Assembly: GCA_013388755.1 (NCBI GenBank) | Contig: JACAEQ010000012.1 | Coordinates: 1 to 64,000 of the forward strand | Length of the DNA stretch: 64,000 nucleotides | Reading direction: 5' to 3' | Origin: Chloroflexota bacterium | Lineage (GTDB): Bacteria > Chloroflexota > Chloroflexia > Chloroflexales > Roseiflexaceae | Shown: positions 38,719 through 49,175 of the stretch, piece by piece | How positions within the stretch are numbered: the stretch's first letter is position 1 | Layout: every line of letters begins with the position of its first letter | The notes under the pieces: generated by a model | Seen by the model: only the letters and a program-made list of their open reading frames with translations | The model's database searches: none | Told to the model about the DNA's origin: nothing | Position numbers and translations under genes: made by a program

Positions 38719-40014
38719 TCAACCAGCCGGGAGGATAGCGCGAAACGCATCGGTAGCCGCATCAATCGTCGTACGAATGATACCGTCATCATGCGCCAGC
38801 GAGAGGAAGGCCGCTTCGAACTGGGCCGGCGCAAGGTACACGCCACGTTCCAGCATGGCGTGGAAGAAACGGGCAAAACAGCGAGTGTCGGATGTTTTCG
38901 CCGACGCATAATCGTATACTGGCTCGCCCGTACAGAAGAAGCCCCACATACTGCCGGCATATGTTGCGCGCAGTGGAACACTGGCAGCGGCGGCGGCTCG
39001 CTCGAAGCCGGTGCACAGGGTGGTGGCGGCGGCTTCCAGTCGCTCGAACACGCCTGGCGCACTGATTGCCCGCAATGTGACGATCCCGGCCGCCATTGCC
39101 AGCGGATTGCCAGAGAGCGTACCTGCCTGATAGACCGGCCCTGCCGGCGCGATCAGTTCCATCAGTTCGCGCCGGCCACCATACGCCGCTGCGGGCAATC
39201 CACCGCCTATGACTTTACCGAGACATGTCAGATCAGGACTGACGCCGTACCGTCCCTGGGCTCCGCCAGGCGCCACACGAAAGCCGGTCATCACCTCGTC
39301 GAAGATCAGCAACGCACCGTGCTCGTCGGCCAGGCGACGCAACCCTTCCAGAAAGCCGGATTGCGGCAGCACGAGCCCCATGTTGCCGGCGACCGGCTCA
39401 ACCATGATAGCCGCAACTTCGCCTGGATTGGCCTTGAGCAACGTCTCCACCGCATCGAGATCGTTGTACGGCGCAGTCAGCGTGCCTGCGGCCGTTGCCG
39501 CAGTAACGCCCGGGCTGTCCGGCAGGCCAAGGGTTGCCACACCTGAGCCAGCCTGAACAAGAAAGCCATCAAAGTGCCCATGGTAGCATCCGGCAAACTT
39601 GATGACCTTATCACGCCGGGTCGCGGCACGCGCCAGGCGTAGCGCACTCATAGCCGCTTCCGTGCCTGACGAAACAAAACGCACCATTTCGACCGCCGGC
39701 ATCGCCTGTACAATCAGGCGAGCCAGTTCATTCTCAAGTTCCGTCGGTGCACCAAATGACGTGCCGCGCGCTGCCTGCTCAGCAACCGCCGCTACAACAT
39801 CCGGATGGGCATGACCAAGGATGAGTGGACCCCACGATAAGACGTAATCGATATAGCGATTGCCGTCCACATCGATGAGAAAGGCACCCTCACCGCGTGC
39901 AATGAAACGCGGTACGCCGCCCACGGCACGAAAGGCACGCACCGGACTATTGACGCCGCCAGGGATCAGCGACTGAGCCTCGGCGAATAATTCCTCGGAG
40001 CAGGTGGTTTTCAT
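38719..40014 (-). CDS. hemL: glutamate-1-semialdehyde 2,1-aminomutase
   Basis: A 431-residue PLP enzyme converting glutamate 1-semialdehyde to 5-aminolevulinate. Motifs: [19 protein letters not shown] at the N-terminus, [15 protein letters not shown] (about 121-135), the cofactor Asp in [12 protein letters not shown], and the PLP Lys in CLGKVIGGG (about 265). GGAGGG seven bases before ATG 40014 sets the start over an ATG ten codons upstream. It is the last gene of the heme operon, 44 bp after hemB. Confidence 0.96.
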
Positions 40015-40058
40015 ACTGGTCCCTCCGGAAGCAGGCACGCGCAAGTCGATCGGCGATA

Positions 40059-41045
40059 TTATGCGCCGCCGGCGATCCAGCGCGCTGCATCTCTGGCAAA
40101 GTAGGTAATGATCATATCGGCTCCGGCGCGCCGAATAGCGGTCAGGCTTTCGAGCGCCGCACGGCGTTCGTCGATCCAGCCCTGCTGCGCCGCGGCTTTT
40201 ATCATGGCATACTCGCCGCTTACCTGGTATGCCGCCAGCGGTAGATCGTACCGTTGCCGCACGGCGCTGATGACGTCAAGGTATGCGCCTGCTGGCTTAA
40301 CCATCAGCATATCGGCCCCTTCGGCAACATCGAGCGCCACCTCGCGCATCGCCTCGCGTCCGTTGGCCGGGTCCATCTGGTAGGCGCGGCGGTCGCCGAA
40401 TGCCGGGGTAGACTCGGCTGCCTCACGGAAGGGACCGTAAAACGCCGACGCAAACTTGGCGGCGTATGACAGGATTGCCACCTGATCGTGACCGGCGGCG
40501 TCAAGCGCGGCACGAATCGCTGCAACCTGGCCGTCCATCATAGCGCTGGGCGCGACAATATCTGCGCCGGCATCGGCGTAGGCCACGGCACAGCGCGCAA
40601 GCAATTCGAGCGTCGGGTCATTCAGCACATCACCGCTGCCGGGCGCATCGGCCAGGACACCACAGTGACCATGGCTTGTATACTCGCACAGGCAGACATC
40701 AGCAATAACGGCCAGATCCGGCGCATACTGCTTGATTGCACGGATCGCCTGCGGCACGGGCCCGGTTGCATCCCAGCCGCTGCTGCCGGTTACATCTTTG
40801 TGCGCTGGAATGCCGAACAGCAACACCGCCGGTATCTTGAGTTCCATCAATGCATCGAGCTCGCTGGTGAGCCGGTCAACCGAGCGCTGCGCCTGGCCGG
40901 GCATCGAGCCAATGGGACGGACGATTCCGCTGCCGTCGGCGACAAACAACGGCGCTATCAGATCATCAACGGTGAGTGTCGTCTCGCGCACCATCTGGCG
41001 CAGGGCTGGTGTACGGCGCAACCGTCGCGGTCGCCGGGTAAGCAT
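40059..41045 (-). CDS. hemB: porphobilinogen synthase (delta-aminolevulinate dehydratase)
   Basis: A 328-residue TIM-barrel enzyme condensing two aminolevulinates to porphobilinogen. The Schiff-base lysines lie in [17 protein letters not shown] (about 199) and [12 protein letters not shown] (about 251). The metal site [16 protein letters not shown] has three cysteines, the zinc-dependent form, unlike the magnesium-only enzymes of many phototrophs. It is the second-last gene of the operon, 22 bp after hemD. Confidence 0.96.
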
Positions 41046-41067: not shown

Positions 41068-41856
41068 TCAGTGAAGCAACCGCCGCTGCAGCGCCTCTAC
41101 CAGCGCTGCGATCATACCTTCCGCCGTCGGCACCGGTGCACGGGCGCTAACGACCAGGCCTTCTTTTTCCAGCGCACGCGCCGTTGCAGGACCGATCGCT
41201 ACAAGTGCGGCGCCGGCGAGCAAATCACGTGCTGTCTGCCGGTCAATGCCGAGGCGTTCACATCCATCGAGCATATAGCGCAATGTTGACGGGCTACTGA
41301 AGACCACCGCATCCAGCGCGCGCGCGCGGAGCGGCGCGAGCAGGCGTTGCACACCGGGGCCGGGAACCGTCCGGTAGGCAATGACGACATCAACCACCGC
41401 TCCGCGCGCGCGCAGGCCGGCCGCCAGCGTCTCACGCGCAATGTCGGCCAACGGGAGGAGTACGCGCGCCCCGGCCATCTCTCCCAGTTCAGCGAGCAAC
41501 CCTTCCGCGTGCTGTTCCGCCGGCAGAAGGTCCACGCAACCACCACAGGCCTCAATGGCAGCGGCGGTTGCCTTCCCGACCGCTGCCACGCGCATATGCG
41601 TAGGCAGTGGCCACGCCTTCCGGGCCGACAGCGCCTCAACTGCTGCGGCGCTGGTGATCATGAGCCAGTCATACCGATCAAGATCGCGCAGCGCCGCGTC
41701 AAGCGGTGCCGGGTCATCCGGCGGGGCATAGGCGATGGTGGGGCATACCAGCACCTCGGCGCCACACGCACGTATTGCCGCTGCAAATCCCTCGGCGCGC
41801 TCGGCAGCGCGAGTAATGGCAATCCGTTTACCCTGTAATGAGCCGGTCGGTTCCAC
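41068..41856 (-). CDS. hemD: uroporphyrinogen-III synthase
   Basis: A 262-residue two-lobed enzyme that cyclises hydroxymethylbilane with inversion of ring D. The family diverges widely. Recognisable parts are [16 protein letters not shown] at the start, [40 protein letters not shown] and [16 protein letters not shown] in the second lobe. The start is GTG 41856 with GAGGAAG upstream. Its position between hemC and hemB supports the call. Confidence 0.92.
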
Positions 41857-41891: not shown

Positions 41892-42806
41892 TTACGCTAC
41901 AGCCAGCAGCGCCCGCCCGCCAGAATCAAGCAGTTCATCAGCCAGCGCCGCCCCGAGTCTGGATGGTTCGGAAGCCGGGCCGCGGCGCCGGCCACGCACC
42001 AGACGCCCATCACGCGTCCCGATCATGCCGTCGAGGATGAGTTCCTCGCCTTCGAGACGCGCCAGCGCGCCAACCGGTACCTGGCAGCCACCACCGATCC
42101 GCGCAAGAAACGCGCGTTCAACAGTGATTGCCAGGCGGGCCGCCGGATCCTCCAGCGGCGCCAGCCGTTGCAGCACGCGATTGTCACCGGCGCGTGCCTC
42201 AATGCCGATCACCCCCTGCCCGACTGCCGGGATCATGACATCTGGTTCGATCAACTCGGTGATGACACTCTCAAGACCCAGGCGTACCAGCCCGGCGGCT
42301 GCCAGCACAATAGCATCATACTGACCATCGTGCAATTTGCGCAGGCGCGTGTCAACGTTGCCGCGCAGATCCAGAATATCGAGGTCGGGACGCATCGAAC
42401 GCAGCTGGCACGCGCGGCGCAGGCTACTGGTGCCGATGCGTGCGCCGCGCGGCAGCGTCGCGAGGGTTGCGCCGGAACGCGCAACCAGTGCATCGCGCGG
42501 ATCAGCGCGACGCGGACACGCAGCCAGCGTCATGTCGGGTGGCAACTCCGACGGGAGATCCTTTGCGCTATGTACCGCCAGGTCAACCCTCCCTGCGCGC
42601 ATCGCTTCTTCGATCTCAACCACAAACAACCCTTTGTCACCAATCGCGTTCAGCGGGCGGTCGAGAATGATGTCGCCCCTGGTCGTAATGTGCTCCACGG
42701 CGACAGTGAGGTCAGGATGCACAACCTGCAACCTGTCGCGGATCATGTGAGTCTGAACCAGCGCGAGCTTGCTGGATCGCGTGCCGATGGTCAGTATCGC
42801 CTTCAT
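41892..42806 (-). CDS. hemC: porphobilinogen deaminase (hydroxymethylbilane synthase)
   Basis: A 304-residue enzyme assembling four porphobilinogens. ILTIGTRSSKLALVQT opens the protein. The catalytic Asp lies in VDLAVHSAKDLPSEL (Asp about 82), the substrate-binding arginines in IGTSSLRRACQL, and the dipyrromethane cofactor is attached to Cys in GGGCQVPVGA (about 240). Its start overlaps the hemH stop by 4 bp, indicating translational coupling. Confidence 0.96.
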   Translation of the reverse strand: MKAILTIGTRSSKLALVQTHMIRDRLQVVHPDLTVAVEHITTRGDIILDRPLNAIGDKGLFVVEIEEAMRAGRVDLAVHSAKDLPSELPPDMTLAACPRRADPRDALVARSGATLATLPRGARIGTSSLRRACQLRSMRPDLDILDLRGNVDTRLRKLHDGQYDAIVLAAAGLVRLGLESVITELIEPDVMIPAVGQGVIGIEARAGDNRVLQRLAPLEDPAARLAITVERAFLARIGGGCQVPVGALARLEGEELILDGMIGTRDGRLVRGRRRGPASEPSRLGAALADELLDSGGRALLAVA

Positions 42807-43738
42807 GCTTTTTTCGCGGCGCCGATAATATCGGCCAGGACGGCCACAAACTCGTCGTCCGCATTCGGCATACGGATGCGACGCAGTTCGATTCCCAGTT
42901 CAGCGGCCTTCTCCTGCGCCTCATGGTCAATGTCCCACAACACTTCGAGATGATCGGCAACGAAGCCAAACGGCGCGCTGACCACGGCGCGCACGCCTTC
43001 GCCGTGCAACTCCTCCAGGTAATCGAGAATATCGGGGCCGAGCCAGGGTTCACCGCTCATACCGGCGCTCTGATAGCACAGACGCCAGTCGGCCAGTCCG
43101 AGCAGACTGGCGATACCCATCGCACTCTCGCGGAGCTCTGCAGGGTACGGGTCGCTCCACGCAAGGATGCGCTCGGGAAGGCTATGGGCACTGAACAGCA
43201 CCAGCGCCACGTTGTGCATATCTGGCGGAAGTTCTGCACGCGCCGCAACGATCCGGTCAGCAATGAGCCGGCGGAAACCCGGGTGATCGTGCCAGCGCTC
43301 GATGAATGTCACCTGAAGCGGCTGGTCAAGCGCCGCATTCGCCTGGTCAAGGTAGGCACGGTAACCACCTACGCTCATCTTCGAGTAGTGCGGCGCCAGC
43401 ACCAGTGCGACGACATCCCGGATGCCTGCAGCAGCGATCTGTGGGACGGTCTCGGCAATGAACGGATGCCAGTGTTTCATGCCGACGAAGAGGCGATACT
43501 GCCCTGGCGCTTCAGCATCGAGGCGCGCCTGGAGCCTGTCGGCTGTGGCAAAGGTCAGGTCCTTCAGCGGCGTGCGGCCACCAACCAGCCGGTAGCGCTC
43601 ACGCAGGTTTGCCAGCGCTTCAGGTGATGGCGGTCGGCCACCGCGAATGTGCGTGAAATATGGCTCAATATCATCAAGGCTCTCAGGCGTGCCATAGGCA
43701 AGCAAGAGGATGCCAGTCGGAGGCGAAGAACTGGTCAT
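42803..43738 (-). CDS. hemH: ferrochelatase, probably coproporphyrin type
   Basis: A 311-residue enzyme inserting iron into the porphyrin. [22 protein letters not shown] and the metal-site histidine region [12 protein letters not shown] (about 180) are typical, followed by [15 protein letters not shown] and [17 protein letters not shown] with the catalytic Glu. Because HemQ is encoded in the same operon, the substrate is expected to be coproporphyrin III (CpfC role) rather than protoporphyrin IX; that is inference from pathway logic. It overlaps hemE by 4 bp. Confidence 0.94.
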
Positions 43739-44787
43739 ATCGTTCGTTCCACTGAATACTCATGCACAAACTCGGCGAGACGGCGCACGGTATCAACCGG
43801 CGTTTCCGGAACGATGCCATGGCCCAGGTTGAAGATGTGCCCGGCGCGACCTGCGGCACGATCGAGAATATCGGCGGCGCGGCGACGCACCTCGGGCCAG
43901 GGGGCCAGGAGCACGTGCGGATCAAGATTGCCCTGTACTGCGACTCCCGGGCCGAGCTGTGCCCATCCCTCATCCAGCGTAATGCGCCAGTCGAGGCCGA
44001 TGACGTCTGCGCCGGTCTGGCGCAGCAGGCCGGACATTCCCCCAAGATCGACGCCGAAATAGATCATCGGCGGTGCCGGATCGCGGGCGAACCCTGCCCG
44101 CACCGTGGCAATGCACCGTTGCACGAACGGCAGCACATACTCGGCATAATCACCTGGTGCCAGCGCACCGGCCCAGCTGTCGAAGATCTGCACCGCGTCG
44201 GCACCAGCCTCGATCTGAGCGATCAGGTATGCACTCACGAGGCCCGTCAGGCGGTCCATCAGGGCGCGCCACGCCTCCGGCTCGGTATACATCAGCACCT
44301 TGGTGCGGCGGTAGTCACGCGACGACCCTCCTTCGATCGCATAGGCCGCAAGGGTAAATGGCGCACCGCTGAAGCCAATCAATGGAACCTTTCCCGACAG
44401 GTCACGTTTGACCAGGCGAATGGCATCAAGCGTGTAAGCAACCGTCTCTCGCGGATCGGCATCGTGCAATGCGGCAATGTCGCCCGGAGCACGCAACGGG
44501 TTGTGGATGACCGGTCCCTCACCGTGCTCATACGTCAGGCGGAGACCAGCTCCTTCCAGCAGCGGCAGAATGTCGGCGAAAACAATGGCGGCATCAACCG
44601 CAAACGCGCGCACCGGTTGCAGTGTTACTTCAGCCGCCAGTTCAGGCGTCTTGACCATCTGGAGAAAGCCGTAGCGCTCGCGCACCGCCCGGTATTCCGG
44701 CATATAACGCCCCGCCTGGCGCATGAACCAGACCGGCGTCACATCGGTACGCTCACGGCGGCATGCCGCCAGAAAACGATAATGCAT
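43735..44787 (-). CDS. hemE: uroporphyrinogen decarboxylase
   Basis: A 350-residue TIM-barrel enzyme removing four carboxyls to give coproporphyrinogen III. The signature [16 protein letters not shown] (about 18-33) is intact, as are [12 protein letters not shown] (catalytic Asp), [18 protein letters not shown] and the [14 protein letters not shown] motif near the C-terminus. It lies 6 bp after hemQ and overlaps hemH. Confidence 0.96.
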
Positions 44788-44793
44788 CGTAAC

Positions 44794-45489
44794 TCATCCA
44801 ATCAGGGCCAGCGCCTCGCGCAACGGCCGGTGAATCGCGGTAATGATCGGTGTGTCGCGCAACGTGTAGCGGCGCGCTTCGGTGGCGCGGAGATCGGTCA
44901 CCAGCTGGCTGAAGCGCGGCAGGTCTTCGGTCTCATACGCCACGACAAACTCCTGGTCATCAATGCCGGTGGCATACAGCAGCACCTGGCGAATGTCGGC
45001 ATACTCATGGCCGACGCGCATATGTTCGTTCATCATGCCCTGGCGCGCGTCGCGGCTCATCAGATACCAGTCGGTCGTCTTGCTGAACGGGTAGACAATC
45101 AGGTATGTCTGGCGATCATCAAGATCGATCGCCTGCTCCTGGGTGGTCGGTCGGCGGGTGTAGGTGGATGGACGGGTGTAGCCGAAGAGCTGGTACGTAA
45201 TTTCACAGTAGCTACCCATACCACTCGTGAGCAGGCGCGCCGTCATCTCCTGCATGCCTTTTGGATCGATGCCACGCCGCCAGAGAAGCAGATCGACACC
45301 GATCTTCATGCCGATACCGCTGTAGGCCCAGGTGGTAATATCCGGAGCATAGTTGTCGAGCACACCGGCGAATATCTCTCGTCCATCGGCGCGCCCGGCC
45401 TGCGCCATGCGACGCCAGGCAGGGTCGACTTTGAAAGCCGTGAACTGGACAAACCACGGAACGGCAGGTGCTTCGTACTGCGCCTGCAT
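44794..45489 (-). CDS. hemQ: coproheme decarboxylase (HemQ/ChdC), chlorite-dismutase family
   Basis: A 231-residue member of the chlorite dismutase family. It carries YLIVYPFSKTTDWYLMS (conserved Tyr and Lys of HemQ, about 128-144) and RQGMMNEHMRVGHEY with the proximal heme-ligand histidine (about 155-162). HemQ oxidatively decarboxylates coproheme to heme b, the final step of the coproporphyrin-dependent route. The distal arginine that marks true chlorite dismutases was not recognised. Its place between hemA and hemE in a heme operon strongly favours HemQ. Confidence 0.9.
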   Translation of the reverse strand: MQAQYEAPAVPWFVQFTAFKVDPAWRRMAQAGRADGREIFAGVLDNYAPDITTWAYSGIGMKIGVDLLLWRRGIDPKGMQEMTARLLTSGMGSYCEITYQLFGYTRPSTYTRRPTTQEQAIDLDDRQTYLIVYPFSKTTDWYLMSRDARQGMMNEHMRVGHEYADIRQVLLYATGIDDQEFVVAYETEDLPRFSQLVTDLRATEARRYTLRDTPIITAIHRPLREALALIG

Positions 45490-45621: not shown

Positions 45622-46908
45622 TCAATGGGAATTGGCATAACCGGTATACGTGTCTTCCGGCAACGGCGCGATATTAAACAGGCGCCGCACTGCGGTCAGC
45701 AGTTCGCCTCCGCCGTCTGGATCGCGTAGCGCAACGATAGGCTCATGCAGCAACTTGTTGATGATAGCCGAGCTGAGCGCCACAACCGTATCGCGCTGTT
45801 GGGACGACAGTTCGGGGCAGCGCGCCAGCGCCCGTCGAATCTCGGCGTCACGGATCGCCTCGGCGCGTTCACGCAGGGCGCGGATCGTTGGCACCACCTG
45901 CTGGATGGCCCACCATTCCATAAACTTTGCCACCGCCTCATCGACCAGCGCCTCGGCGCGTTGCATTTCTGCCGCGCGAGTCGCACGGTTTGCGCTGCAT
46001 ACTGGTTCGAGCGCATCAACATCAAATAGTTGTACGCCGGGGATGCCGGCTACCTCCTGGTCAATGTCCCGCGGAACCGCCAGATCGAAGAGCAACAGCG
46101 GTGTGGCGCGTCCTGCCGCGGCGTGCACCACGGCATGCATTGGGATGACGATGCCCGGCGCGGCAGTGCAACTCAACACCATATCGCTGCCCGCCAGTGC
46201 GCCTTCCAGTTCGCTGAACGGTCGCCAGGCAACACCATAGCGTTGCGCCAGGGTCGCCGCCCGTTCATCGGTGCGATTCACCACCGTGATCGCGGCGCCC
46301 GCCTCGACGTGCAGATGCTTCAATGCCAGTTCGGCCATGCGACCCGCGCCCACGATCAGGATGCGCCCGCGCGCCAGCAAGCCAGGGAAGTGGCGCGCCA
46401 GATCGATTGCCACCGACACGACCGATACACGTCCGGCGGCAATACCCGTCTGCGTGCGCACATGTTTGCCGGCAGCCAGTGCGCCATGAAGCACGCGGTG
46501 CAGCACCGGGCCAACCGTCCCGGCCGCGTGCGCAATCGCGAGGGCTTCTTTCAACTGGCCGACGATCTGGTTTTCACCCAGCACCATCGAATCAAGGCCA
46601 GCTGCCAGGCGGTAGAGGTGACGCACCACCGCAGCATCCTGATGAACATACAGCGACGAGGCGAAAGCCGTCTCACTTATGCCACGCTGAGCTGCCAGAA
46701 AGGATGAAAGCGCGCCCTCGCCGGAGACCCTATCGTGCGTCACGGCACAGACCTCGACCCGGTTACACGTCGAAAGAATGAACCCCTCATCGACGCGCGC
46801 GTGGAGCGCAAGCAGCGCTTCGGGCAATTCGCCCAGCCCAAAGGCCAGGCGCTCACGCACGGTCACTGGCGTGTTGCGCTGGTGAACACCGATCAGGGTG
46901 AGCTGCAT
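45622..46908 (-). CDS. hemA: glutamyl-tRNA reductase
   Basis: A 428-residue enzyme reducing glutamyl-tRNA(Glu) to glutamate 1-semialdehyde, the committed step of C5-pathway tetrapyrrole synthesis. The catalytic Cys is in ILSTCNRVEVCA (about 48), GLDSMVLGENQIVGQ follows, the NADPH Rossmann motif is ILIVGAGRMAELALKHL (about 184-200), and a C-terminal dimerisation helix bundle closes the chain. It lies 15 bp after the regulator and 132 bp before hemQ, the longest gap within the operon. Confidence 0.96.
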   Translation of the reverse strand: MQLTLIGVHQRNTPVTVRERLAFGLGELPEALLALHARVDEGFILSTCNRVEVCAVTHDRVSGEGALSSFLAAQRGISETAFASSLYVHQDAAVVRHLYRLAAGLDSMVLGENQIVGQLKEALAIAHAAGTVGPVLHRVLHGALAAGKHVRTQTGIAAGRVSVVSVAIDLARHFPGLLARGRILIVGAGRMAELALKHLHVEAGAAITVVNRTDERAATLAQRYGVAWRPFSELEGALAGSDMVLSCTAAPGIVIPMHAVVHAAAGRATPLLLFDLAVPRDIDQEVAGIPGVQLFDVDALEPVCSANRATRAAEMQRAEALVDEAVAKFMEWWAIQQVVPTIRALRERAEAIRDAEIRRALARCPELSSQQRDTVVALSSAIINKLLHEPIVALRDPDGGGELLTAVRRLFNIAPLPEDTYTGYANSH

Positions 46909-46923
46909 ACCTGAATTCCTCGA

Positions 46924-47538
46924 CTACTGTTGCTCATAACCGTCAATCGCGCCGAGCAGTATGGCGTCCATAAAGCGATCAATGCGCATATGGAGTGAGG
47001 CTGCCTGGTCAATGTCGTTCGGTTGCGCGATCCCGGGAACCGGGAGAGCCAGGCGCGAAAACGAACGACGAAAGAACAGAAACGCCTCGACTGTATCGTG
47101 CATGCTCAGGCCGGCCTCGCGGGTCTCACGGCCGTAGCTGCTGCCGACGGTTCGCGCTTCATTGAGGAAGCGGGCATCCTCTTCGTGACGATTGATATAC
47201 TGAATGAGCAAGCCGAGCAGGCGCTGCCCAAGGCCACGCATGCGGTCGGTATCGGAACGGGTCACGAAGCGCGTATGCCAGTTGGCGCGCGACATTGCAT
47301 GGGCATCGAACTGGAGCAGTGGGGATGCAGGCGCAGGTGTGCTTCCGTGGATCTGTGCAGCATCAAGGTGCTGCAGACCGGCGCGTGAAAAGCGCCGGTG
47401 TCCACCGAGGGTGCGCTTCATCGGCACCTTGCCGGCATCGCCCCAGCGCCGCAAAGTTGAGGCCGCGACCCCGAGCAGTGCACTGGCCTCGGCCAGTGAG
47501 AGCCAGTCGTCTGACGTTGGATCAGAATTGGTGATCAT
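46924..47538 (-). CDS. MerR/excisionase-type HTH regulator with helical sensor-like domain, inside the heme operon
   Basis: A 204-residue regulator. The N-terminal winged HTH has LSLAEASALLGVAASTLRRWGDAGKVPM and TLGGHRRFSRAGLQHL (residues 13-60). After a linker, residues about 100-200 are predicted helical (RMRGLGQRLLGLLIQYIN, then YGRETREAGLSMHDTVEAFLFFRRSF) and resemble the N-terminal helical domain of RsbRD/PucR-type sensors. ATG 47538 overlaps the hemY stop (ATGA) and hemA follows at 15 bp, so it is cotranscribed with heme genes. It is an attractive candidate for a heme- or precursor-responsive regulator of this operon, which is inference. Confidence 0.75.
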   Translation of the reverse strand: MITNSDPTSDDWLSLAEASALLGVAASTLRRWGDAGKVPMKRTLGGHRRFSRAGLQHLDAAQIHGSTPAPASPLLQFDAHAMSRANWHTRFVTRSDTDRMRGLGQRLLGLLIQYINRHEEDARFLNEARTVGSSYGRETREAGLSMHDTVEAFLFFRRSFSRLALPVPGIAQPNDIDQAASLHMRIDRFMDAILLGAIDGYEQQ

Positions 47539-49013
47539 AATGATGATCCAGCTACAGCATGGGCCGCAGACACCACCATCAGCGCCTTGCGTGCCGCCTC
47601 GCGCCCCTGTTTGATGCAATCAGGAACGCCAACGCCGCGATATGCCGCGCCAGCCAGGAACAACCCTTCGGGACAGAGTCGCTCGAGAGCCTCGATGTGC
47701 CCCAGATGACCCACATCATACTGGGGGTTACCATTAGGCCAGCGATAGACTCGCGACAGCACCGGCTCGGCAGAAACGCCAAATATCTCGCGAATCTCGG
47801 TTCGCGCCAGTGCCACCAGTTCGTCGTCCTCGCGCGCCGGCAATTCCGGACGGCGCGATCCGCCAACGAAGCAACGCAACAGGAGAAACTCATCGGGAGC
47901 GCGGTGGCGAAACTTGACCGACGACAACGTGCAGGCATTGATCTGGCGTTGCTCACCACGTGGAATCACGAGCCCGTAGCCATCCAGCAGATTGCCGGTA
48001 TCGGCGCGCCGGTATACGAACGAGACAGTAGCCGTCGAAACATAGCGAATGGCGCGCAAGGCAGCCGCCAGCTCAGGAAAGCCCGGCGCAGTCAGGTCGG
48101 CTGCGACAAAGGACGGAGTGGCAAGAATGACCGCATCGGCATCCAGCGCCGTACCATCATCGAGGCACAGATGATACGGTCGAGCGGCAGCCGGCCGGTG
48201 CGCCAGGGTCACCACCGTGGAGCCGGTGAAGATACGCGCGGTCAGGCGTTGCTCAAGGCGTTCAACGAGCGCACTCATCCCGTTGCGCAAGGTCATGAAT
48301 GGCGACTGGTGGGCGGATGGCTCCCTGGGCGCATTGCGCCGCGCAGCGAGCATGCCGCGGATCAGGCTGCCGTAACGCTTCTCGAGGTCGCGGAAGCGCG
48401 GAAACGTCGCCATGATACTCTGGCGTTCGCACTCGGCGCTATGGATGCCGGAGAGGATCGGTTCGGCCAGGCGATCGAGCGCCTCAGTGCCCAGGCGGCG
48501 CCGGATGAAATCCGCCAGCGTCTCATCACCATCATCGCGGCGCGCCGGTACAACCAGATCGAGCACCATGCGCAATTTACCAAGTGGCGAGATCAGGGGC
48601 GAAAACGCAAAGGGAGCAATGCGTGTCGGGACAATGAGCAGCATCCCTTCGGGGAGTGGCTGCGGTCGGCCACGTACCAGCACCCAGGTGGTACGTCGCA
48701 TTGGCGAGGCAACCATCAACTCGTCACCCAGGCCAAGCTCGCGCGCCAGTTCAGCGGCCCATGGCTTTTGCGCCATAAATGAATCTGGCCCACCCTCGAT
48801 CAGAAACGGCCCGCTATGTTCCGTGACAATCTTTCCCCCCAGACGCGGTTCGCGCTCGATCAGCGTTACCGCTACCGGCGGCGCGGCAGAGTGCGTACTA
48901 CGACCGAGTTCATAAGCCGCGCTCAGACCGCTGATCCCACCGCCAACCACCACAATGTGCGGCAGAGCGTCAGGGGGCATCGTCGCCACCGACGATGGAG
49001 GCGTCGTGATCAT
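47535..49013 (-). CDS. hemY: (copro)porphyrinogen oxidase, HemY/CgoX type
   Basis: A 492-residue FAD enzyme. The dinucleotide motif VVVGGGISGLSAAYELGR is near residue 21-38, LIEREPRLGGKIVTE follows, and the chain closes with LFLAGAAYRGVGVPDCIKQGREAA, the second FAD signature. GGPDSFM and the ILSGIHSAE segment are typical of oxygen-dependent HemY. Given HemQ, coproporphyrinogen III is its likely substrate (CgoX). ATG 49013 lacks a close Shine-Dalgarno (GAGGAG is about 24 bases away), so ATG at codon 12 may be used. It is the first gene of the heme operon. Confidence 0.93.
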   Translation of the reverse strand: MITTPPSSVATMPPDALPHIVVVGGGISGLSAAYELGRSTHSAAPPVAVTLIEREPRLGGKIVTEHSGPFLIEGGPDSFMAQKPWAAELARELGLGDELMVASPMRRTTWVLVRGRPQPLPEGMLLIVPTRIAPFAFSPLISPLGKLRMVLDLVVPARRDDGDETLADFIRRRLGTEALDRLAEPILSGIHSAECERQSIMATFPRFRDLEKRYGSLIRGMLAARRNAPREPSAHQSPFMTLRNGMSALVERLEQRLTARIFTGSTVVTLAHRPAAARPYHLCLDDGTALDADAVILATPSFVAADLTAPGFPELAAALRAIRYVSTATVSFVYRRADTGNLLDGYGLVIPRGEQRQINACTLSSVKFRHRAPDEFLLLRCFVGGSRRPELPAREDDELVALARTEIREIFGVSAEPVLSRVYRWPNGNPQYDVGHLGHIEALERLCPEGLFLAGAAYRGVGVPDCIKQGREAARKALMVVSAAHAVAGSSL

Positions 49014-49029
49014 GGACGCACCAGATTCT

Positions 49030-49084
49030 AGTCAAATCTCCTCAAATCTGCGCTAACTATAGTAGATTCAAAAGGTAAAGTCAA
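49030..49084 (-). promoter_or_regulatory. heme operon promoter with tandem-repeat operator candidate
   Basis: On the minus strand TTGACT (49084-49079), 17 bp, TATAGT (49061-49056). From the expected start site onwards lie two direct repeats AGATTTGA spaced 10 bp apart (within 49049-49030), one helical turn, which suggests a dimer-binding operator. A GTAAA...TTTAC inverted repeat overlaps the -35 box. All are candidate sites for the cotranscribed MerR-type regulator. Confidence 0.75.
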
Positions 49085-49119
49085 GGTTTACAAAAGTGAT
49101 GCATGCAGTACACAAAGCA

Positions 49120-49146
49120 TACAGGGCGAGGAAGCCTCACCCTGTA
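49120..49146 (-). terminator. terminator after tyrS
   Basis: Twelve-base stem TACAGGGTGAGG-CTT-CCTCGCCCTGTA read on the minus strand (one G-U pair, mispaired on the other strand), followed by TGCTTTGTG. It separates tyrS from the heme operon promoter. Confidence 0.6.
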
Positions 49147-49175
49147 CAACAGATCACCTGCACCTATGTGAGGGA

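Follow-up and report, generated by a model that had tools for sequence, protein, structure and literature searches.

A candidate heme-synthesis regulator in the hem operon of a Chloroflexota bacterium, with a BldC-like winged helix-turn-helix and a predicted non-heme globin-type domain

The regulator gene and its operon

The window, by which we mean the whole 64,000-nucleotide stretch of a Roseiflexaceae contig that was analysed, holds ten genes on the minus strand in the order hemY, regulator, hemA, hemQ, hemE, hemH, hemC, hemD, hemB and hemL. The regulator gene, of which the source genome has one copy, is an intact open reading frame of 204 amino acids, and its coordinates verify the tight packing described in the first-pass annotation: the hemY stop and the regulator ATG share 4 bp (ATGA, 47538-47535), and 15 bp separate the regulator stop from the hemA ATG at 46908. 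The reading frame is not a chance one, since full-length orthologs, down to about 30% identity, are present in more than half of 400 Chloroflexota genomes. A near-consensus sigma-70-type promoter precedes hemY, with TTGACT at 49084-49079, a 17-nt spacer and TATAGT at 49061-49056. The features are listed here in the direction of transcription.

49118..49148, minus strand: terminator-like hairpin behind tyrS, upstream border of the operon (consensus scan only)
49079..49084, minus strand: -35 element TTGACT, 17-nt spacer to the -10
49056..49061, minus strand: -10 element TATAGT of the hem operon promoter, conserved in relatives
49021..49050, minus strand: predicted operator, three 10-bp direct-repeat units CAGATTTGAG GAGATTTGAC TAGAATCTGG, from repeat comparison
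47535..49013, minus strand: hemY/cgoX (protoporphyrinogen/coproporphyrinogen oxidase), first gene of the operon
46924..47538, minus strand: regulator gene, BldC-like winged HTH plus C-terminal globin-like domain, 204 aa (ORF, domain matches, family alignments)
47359..47505, minus strand: winged HTH, residues 12-60 (domain match and BldC alignment)
46927..47346, minus strand: helical C-terminal domain (residues 65-204) with a predicted sensor fold of the non-heme globin type (structure models)
45622..46908, minus strand: hemA (glutamyl-tRNA reductase)
44794..45489, minus strand: hemQ-like (chlorite dismutase family)
43735..44787, minus strand: hemE
42803..43738, minus strand: hemH
41892..42806, minus strand: hemC
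41068..41856, minus strand: hemD
40059..41045, minus strand: hemB
38719..40044, minus strand: hemL (aminotransferase class III), named by operon context

The DNA-binding half

Residues 12-60 match the MerR/HTH_17 domain (E 8e-9), and the top NCBIfam match is BldC (HTH_BldC, 3e-11), under the curated cut-off. The solved structures nearest to the HTH are those of BldC (6ama, 6amk), followed by MerR-type B12 regulators; against 6ama, phmmer gave an E-value of 8.5e-7 and the family profile one of 2.1e-13. The likeness to Streptomyces BldC extends to the RTLGGHRR signature, which is retained, and to R31, which aligns with BldC Arg30, the residue just before the Trp that contacts a C-G pair in DNA (PMC5859096). 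The DNA sites of BldC are direct repeats, among them GATTTCCCC and CATTTGCAC, at 9 bp per protomer (PMC5859096), and the sites at which binding by the regulator is predicted are likewise direct repeats of about 9 bp per protomer, with an AT-rich core and a C-G pair downstream. The two proteins differ in that BldC, a developmental regulator, consists of a 68-residue HTH only, whereas the regulator adds a C-terminal domain of 140 residues, and so departs from the description of the BldC family as HTH only with no effector domain, and has heme genes as its predicted targets.

Classical MerR proteins use a palindrome within a promoter spacer of 19-20 bp, whereas the hemY promoter has a 17-bp spacer and direct repeats downstream of it, which rules out a classical MerR palindrome inside the spacer. 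The model gives a globin-like helical region behind the HTH and no coiled coil of the MerR kind, although its confidence is low across the HTH and linker. On sequence comparison, then, the HTH is of the BldC kind and not of the classical MerR kind: of the original description as a MerR- or excisionase-type winged HTH, the winged HTH stands, but the excisionase and classical MerR parts do not. Short HTH-only BldC-like matches are common in the searched genomes, and viral contigs resemble the regulator at the level of the HTH only. The same kind of BldC/MerR HTH also occurs, in an unrelated use, in IS607-type resolvase-like proteins (L053:9668-10363 and L263).

The C-terminal half

For residues 65-204 of the window protein no Pfam family was above threshold, and Pfam, NCBIfam and the family profile run against PDB sequences detected only the HTH confidently, not the C-terminal domain. 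RsbRD_N (PF14361) was absent from the window protein and gave a weak match in 4 of 54 orthologs (best E 0.0044, under the gathering score). The structure prediction that the first-pass annotation had called for was run as two AlphaFold2 models, one of the full length (mean pLDDT 60) and one of the C-terminal domain alone (72). The best match of both was pXO2-61, a non-heme globin (VIA-align Z 12.3 and 11.3), behind which Foldseek and VIA-align placed pXO1-118, RsbR_N (Z 9.1 and 7.7), a stressosome protein, globin-coupled sensors and phycobiliproteins; Z values for helical domains and bundles need caution, but both models nonetheless point to the same superfamily, and a non-heme globin-type sensor fold is predicted. 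The initial reading of an RsbRD/PucR-like helical domain was therefore right at the level of the fold, which pXO2-61 and RsbR_N share with the N-domain of MabR, a PucR-type lipid-synthesis regulator in which that domain is a non-heme globin (PMC11617747).

In the 54-member alignment the conserved C-terminal residues are W87, R101, G104, G132, Y135, F156 and R157, with no invariant or nearly invariant His and no conserved Cys or Met in the domain. Because conserved His and Cys are lacking, ordinary heme-iron ligation is unlikely; a tetrapyrrole could possibly be gripped via its carboxylates. The N-domains of RsbR/RsbRD and MabR, together with pXO2-61 and pXO1-118, have the same predicted fold over about 120 residues and no heme-ligating His, but they are fused to STAS domains, fused in PucR-type GGDEF-HTH proteins, or standalone, and none is known here for the control of heme synthesis. 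The heme-binding globin-coupled sensors, in contrast, have a conserved proximal His, which has no conserved counterpart in the regulator alignment. CarH and the photocobilins (PDB 8jbs, 8j2w; PMC10979010) come close in other respects: CarH has a MerR-like HTH, 8jbs matches the regulator in the sequence of the HTH region, and the globin-like tetrapyrrole-binding domain of photocobilins has its counterpart in the predicted globin-like fold. The B12-binding domain is missing from the regulator, however; its Pfam family was found neither in the window protein nor among the 25 commonest families in the orthologs.

Distribution and linkage to heme genes

Orthologs, mostly one per genome, were found in 216 of 400 Chloroflexota genomes (E up to 1e-18) and, at E up to 1e-6 and with some HTH-only, in 119 of the 158 genomes of the window's class. 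A search for hemY-HTH-hemA synteny across the phylum had also been proposed, with a family scattered without heme-gene linkage named as the outcome that would count against a role in the pathway; linkage to heme genes instead proved to be conserved across many families. The exact hemY-regulator-hemA order is confined to the window's own family, Roseiflexaceae, and elsewhere HTH-hemA or HTH-Met8-hemA prevails. Herpetosiphonaceae have regulator-hemA-hemQ and onward, another Chloroflexales family has regulator-Met8-hemA-hemC-hemD-hemB, and a further taxonomic order has regulator-hemH-hemQ or regulator-Met8-hemC and onward; in other classes the regulator precedes hemA, Met8-hemA, or the siroheme-pathway genes ahbA/B, ahbC/nirJ1 and ahbD. 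Outside the window's class, a tetrapyrrole gene lies no more than 6 kb away at 17 of 39 loci (binomial 4e-16 if 3% is assumed). In roughly half of these loci the regulator stands away from heme genes, many such promoters being without a clear repeat, and there it may have other targets. Within Chloroflexales, 65 genomes have both the regulator and hemA, 0 the regulator only, 2 hemA only and 15 neither, so that, as far as gene content tells, the two are lost together.

The linkage spans lineages with the coproporphyrin route and lineages with the siroheme (Ahb) route of heme synthesis. Since these two terminal routes share only the early intermediates to uroporphyrinogen III and heme itself, the likely effector would be narrowed.

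Several neighbourhoods hold other genes. In Chloroflexaceae (L038:6909-9780, L083 and L084) the regulator's neighbours are a PucC-family MFS transporter and a DsbA-like protein, and in L125 and L139, from another class, PucC-like genes precede it; these PucC-like neighbours may transport tetrapyrroles. Small, related-looking polytopic membrane proteins lie behind the regulator in three families (L118, L125, L129), the L118 protein having no Pfam match. Genomes of family f14 (G126-G130, G133, G137, G140, G141 and others) have the regulator and no GlutR_N (hemA) match, some of them with a hemC operon, and represent either incomplete assemblies or another route to 5-aminolevulinate.

The predicted operator

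The predicted operator is a series of TAGRTTTG direct repeats, in steps of 9-11 bp, just downstream of the -10; the three units of the window (49050-49021) follow the -10 directly. In the 5.1-Mb source genome (G000) the only perfect match to AGRTTTGNNNAGRTTTG is at 49033-49049, in the hemY promoter, and the reversed-pattern control gave 0 matches there. The 9-bp-step pattern had one 2-mismatch match elsewhere in the source genome, equal to the control, and a 1-mismatch match to the 10-bp-step form (G000:C36) was rejected as an extra site, being within an ORF. Repeats stand at the same place in the hemY promoters of all readable relatives in the window's family (11 loci, two from the same genome, with one further, truncated relative left out), and G001 has the 9-bp-step form in both its hemY promoter and the regulator's own promoter.

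When promoters were compared more widely, taking the regulator's own or hemY's where hemY leads, 23 of 71 reached a shuffle p <=0.02 against about 1.4 expected, in a test that is partly circular because some of these promoters also supplied the repeat unit. Chloroflexus hemA promoters have weak repeats only. The short pattern gives chance matches in AT-rich genomes, and exact matches in one Ktedonobacter-like genome (L236) were discarded, being located in 16S rRNA-like sequence. The original suggestion, that the gene is expressed together with a pathway under its probable control, is well supported by the linkage across many families and by the predicted operator in the 49030-49084 promoter that the first-pass annotation named.

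Further sites were seen. On the minus strand of the window, TTTGTAAACCTTGAC (49081-49095) overlaps the -35; the closest relatives conserve it, and its opposite strand includes an AGGTTTA-like half site. In three Chloroflexus species (L248:7068, L249:6734, L250:7070) a small gene for a DUF4491 membrane protein has the operator pattern about 30 nt ahead of it, which suggests, at the level of sequence, that the DUF4491 protein is in the same regulon as the heme genes.

Families f11 to f14, whose regulator gene mostly lies away from heme genes, served as an independent test of the operator, the pattern having been set in advance and matches counted at <=1 mismatch. It was present ahead of hemC or hemA in 18 of the 34 genomes that carry the regulator: at hemC in 17 (G113, G118, G125, G099, G105-G111, G114, G115, G120, G124, G130 and G140), at upstream distances reaching about 215 nt, and immediately upstream of hemA in G149. 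Many of the hemC promoters have four units in 10-bp steps directly behind the -10. Among hemA-bearing relatives without a full-length regulator the pattern occurred in 1 of 18, a difference with a Fisher p of 7e-4 that is only indicative because genomes within a family are related; for AT-rich control genomes part of the matches were examined as loci and the others compared with hemA coordinates only. The one relative of this group that shows the motif has it at hemA, is an incomplete genome, and has sister genomes that carry the regulator.

A proposed mechanism and its alternatives

Read jointly, these results make it probable, in our estimation, that the gene encodes a dedicated repressor of Chloroflexota tetrapyrrole synthesis, acting on repeats in the manner of BldC and equipped with a tetrapyrrole-reporting sensor. 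The gene, its linkage, the operator with its promoter position and the predicted fold are covered by evidence from sequence. We infer that the regulator binds the predicted operator and represses from it, and likewise what it senses. The BldC-like winged HTH would bind head to tail on a run of two to four direct repeats (TAGRTTTG, 9-11 bp steps), an assembly suggested, by analogy, by the fit of the repeat geometry to the roughly 9 bp per protomer of BldC. The repeats lie downstream of the -10, which suggests steric repression or a roadblock: when occupied, just past the -10, they would block transcription of the hem operon, and the regulator, being located in that operon, would limit its own synthesis. 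The non-heme-globin-type domain would be the sensor and oligomerisation part, probably setting oligomerisation, and would most likely report heme or an early shared tetrapyrrole intermediate, with enough product leading to tighter repression. The most economical reading is end-product co-repression, with heme or a precursor as the effector.

The signal might instead be something other than a tetrapyrrole, such as a fatty acid, redox state, oxygen or light, which would tie heme synthesis to stress or energy state, and we regard this as the lesser but still substantial prospect. The best fold matches (pXO2-61, pXO1-118, RsbR_N and stressosome globins) speak for it, as RsbR- or pXO-type non-heme globins may couple to stress or energy state likewise, and so do the lack of a conserved His anywhere in the domain and the service of a non-heme globin in the lipid-synthesis regulator MabR. 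In many lineages, however, the linkage is specific to tetrapyrrole genes, and it is seen with the coproporphyrin route as well as the siroheme route, as would suit an end product or a precursor common to both; related globin-fold domains, those of phycobiliproteins and photocobilins, do bind tetrapyrroles (PMC10979010, PMC10151467). A more detailed form of the tetrapyrrole reading, with a one-component sensor widespread in the phylum whose His-less globin fold directly binds heme or a shared porphyrinogen precursor and thereby drives a BldC-type filament to form head to tail on the direct repeats, controlling heme synthesis with either late pathway and with PucC-type transporters in the regulon, is one that we put forward tentatively, as somewhat unlikely in all its parts.

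Rather improbable, in our view, is that the same operator serves an activator, or a repressor relieved by its ligand (a precursor such as 5-aminolevulinate). BldC can act at unusual positions (PMC5859096), and the conserved sensor Arg residues (R101, R157) would suit any carboxylated ligand; the repeats, though, are downstream of the -10 in the compared hemY and hemC promoters, as is typical of repression, and the near-consensus -35 and -10 at 17-bp spacing leave no need for an activator. That the HTH protein is a chance member of the operon with another target, the repeats being bound by one of the other BldC-like proteins common in these genomes, is very improbable even though roughly every second locus outside the class is unlinked to heme genes, and this reading and the excisionase one are rejected in view of the phylum-wide, recurrent and independently arranged linkage and the operator, along with the joint loss of regulator and hemA in Chloroflexales, the repeats in the regulator's own promoter and the dependence of the hemC/hemA motifs on its presence.

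Relation to known heme regulators

Regulators of the HrtR and Fur types also control heme systems. HrrA, ChrA and HemX are known heme-control systems as well (PMC10991733). The likeness of all of these to the repressor proposed here lies in controlling hemA and heme genes, at or after transcription, in response to heme or iron; they are, however, of two-component, TetR, Fur or membrane-protein types, with architectures unrelated to that of the regulator. The openly accessible literature yielded no described regulator that combines a BldC-type HTH with a non-heme globin, in agreement with the first-pass annotation, which knew of no heme regulator with such an architecture. The protein is best filed as a one-component heme-pathway regulator with a BldC-type HTH and a non-heme-globin-type sensor, and would be a type of heme regulator new to the literature, made from two known modules.

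For a large and little-studied phylum that includes phototrophs, the locus offers a candidate regulator of heme synthesis and a DNA site at exact coordinates. If the proposal is true, DNA binding of the BldC type and sensing by a non-heme globin would be joined in a new architecture for heme control, and the sensor fold of the non-heme globins, for which few ligands are known, would gain a tractable pathway and read-out.
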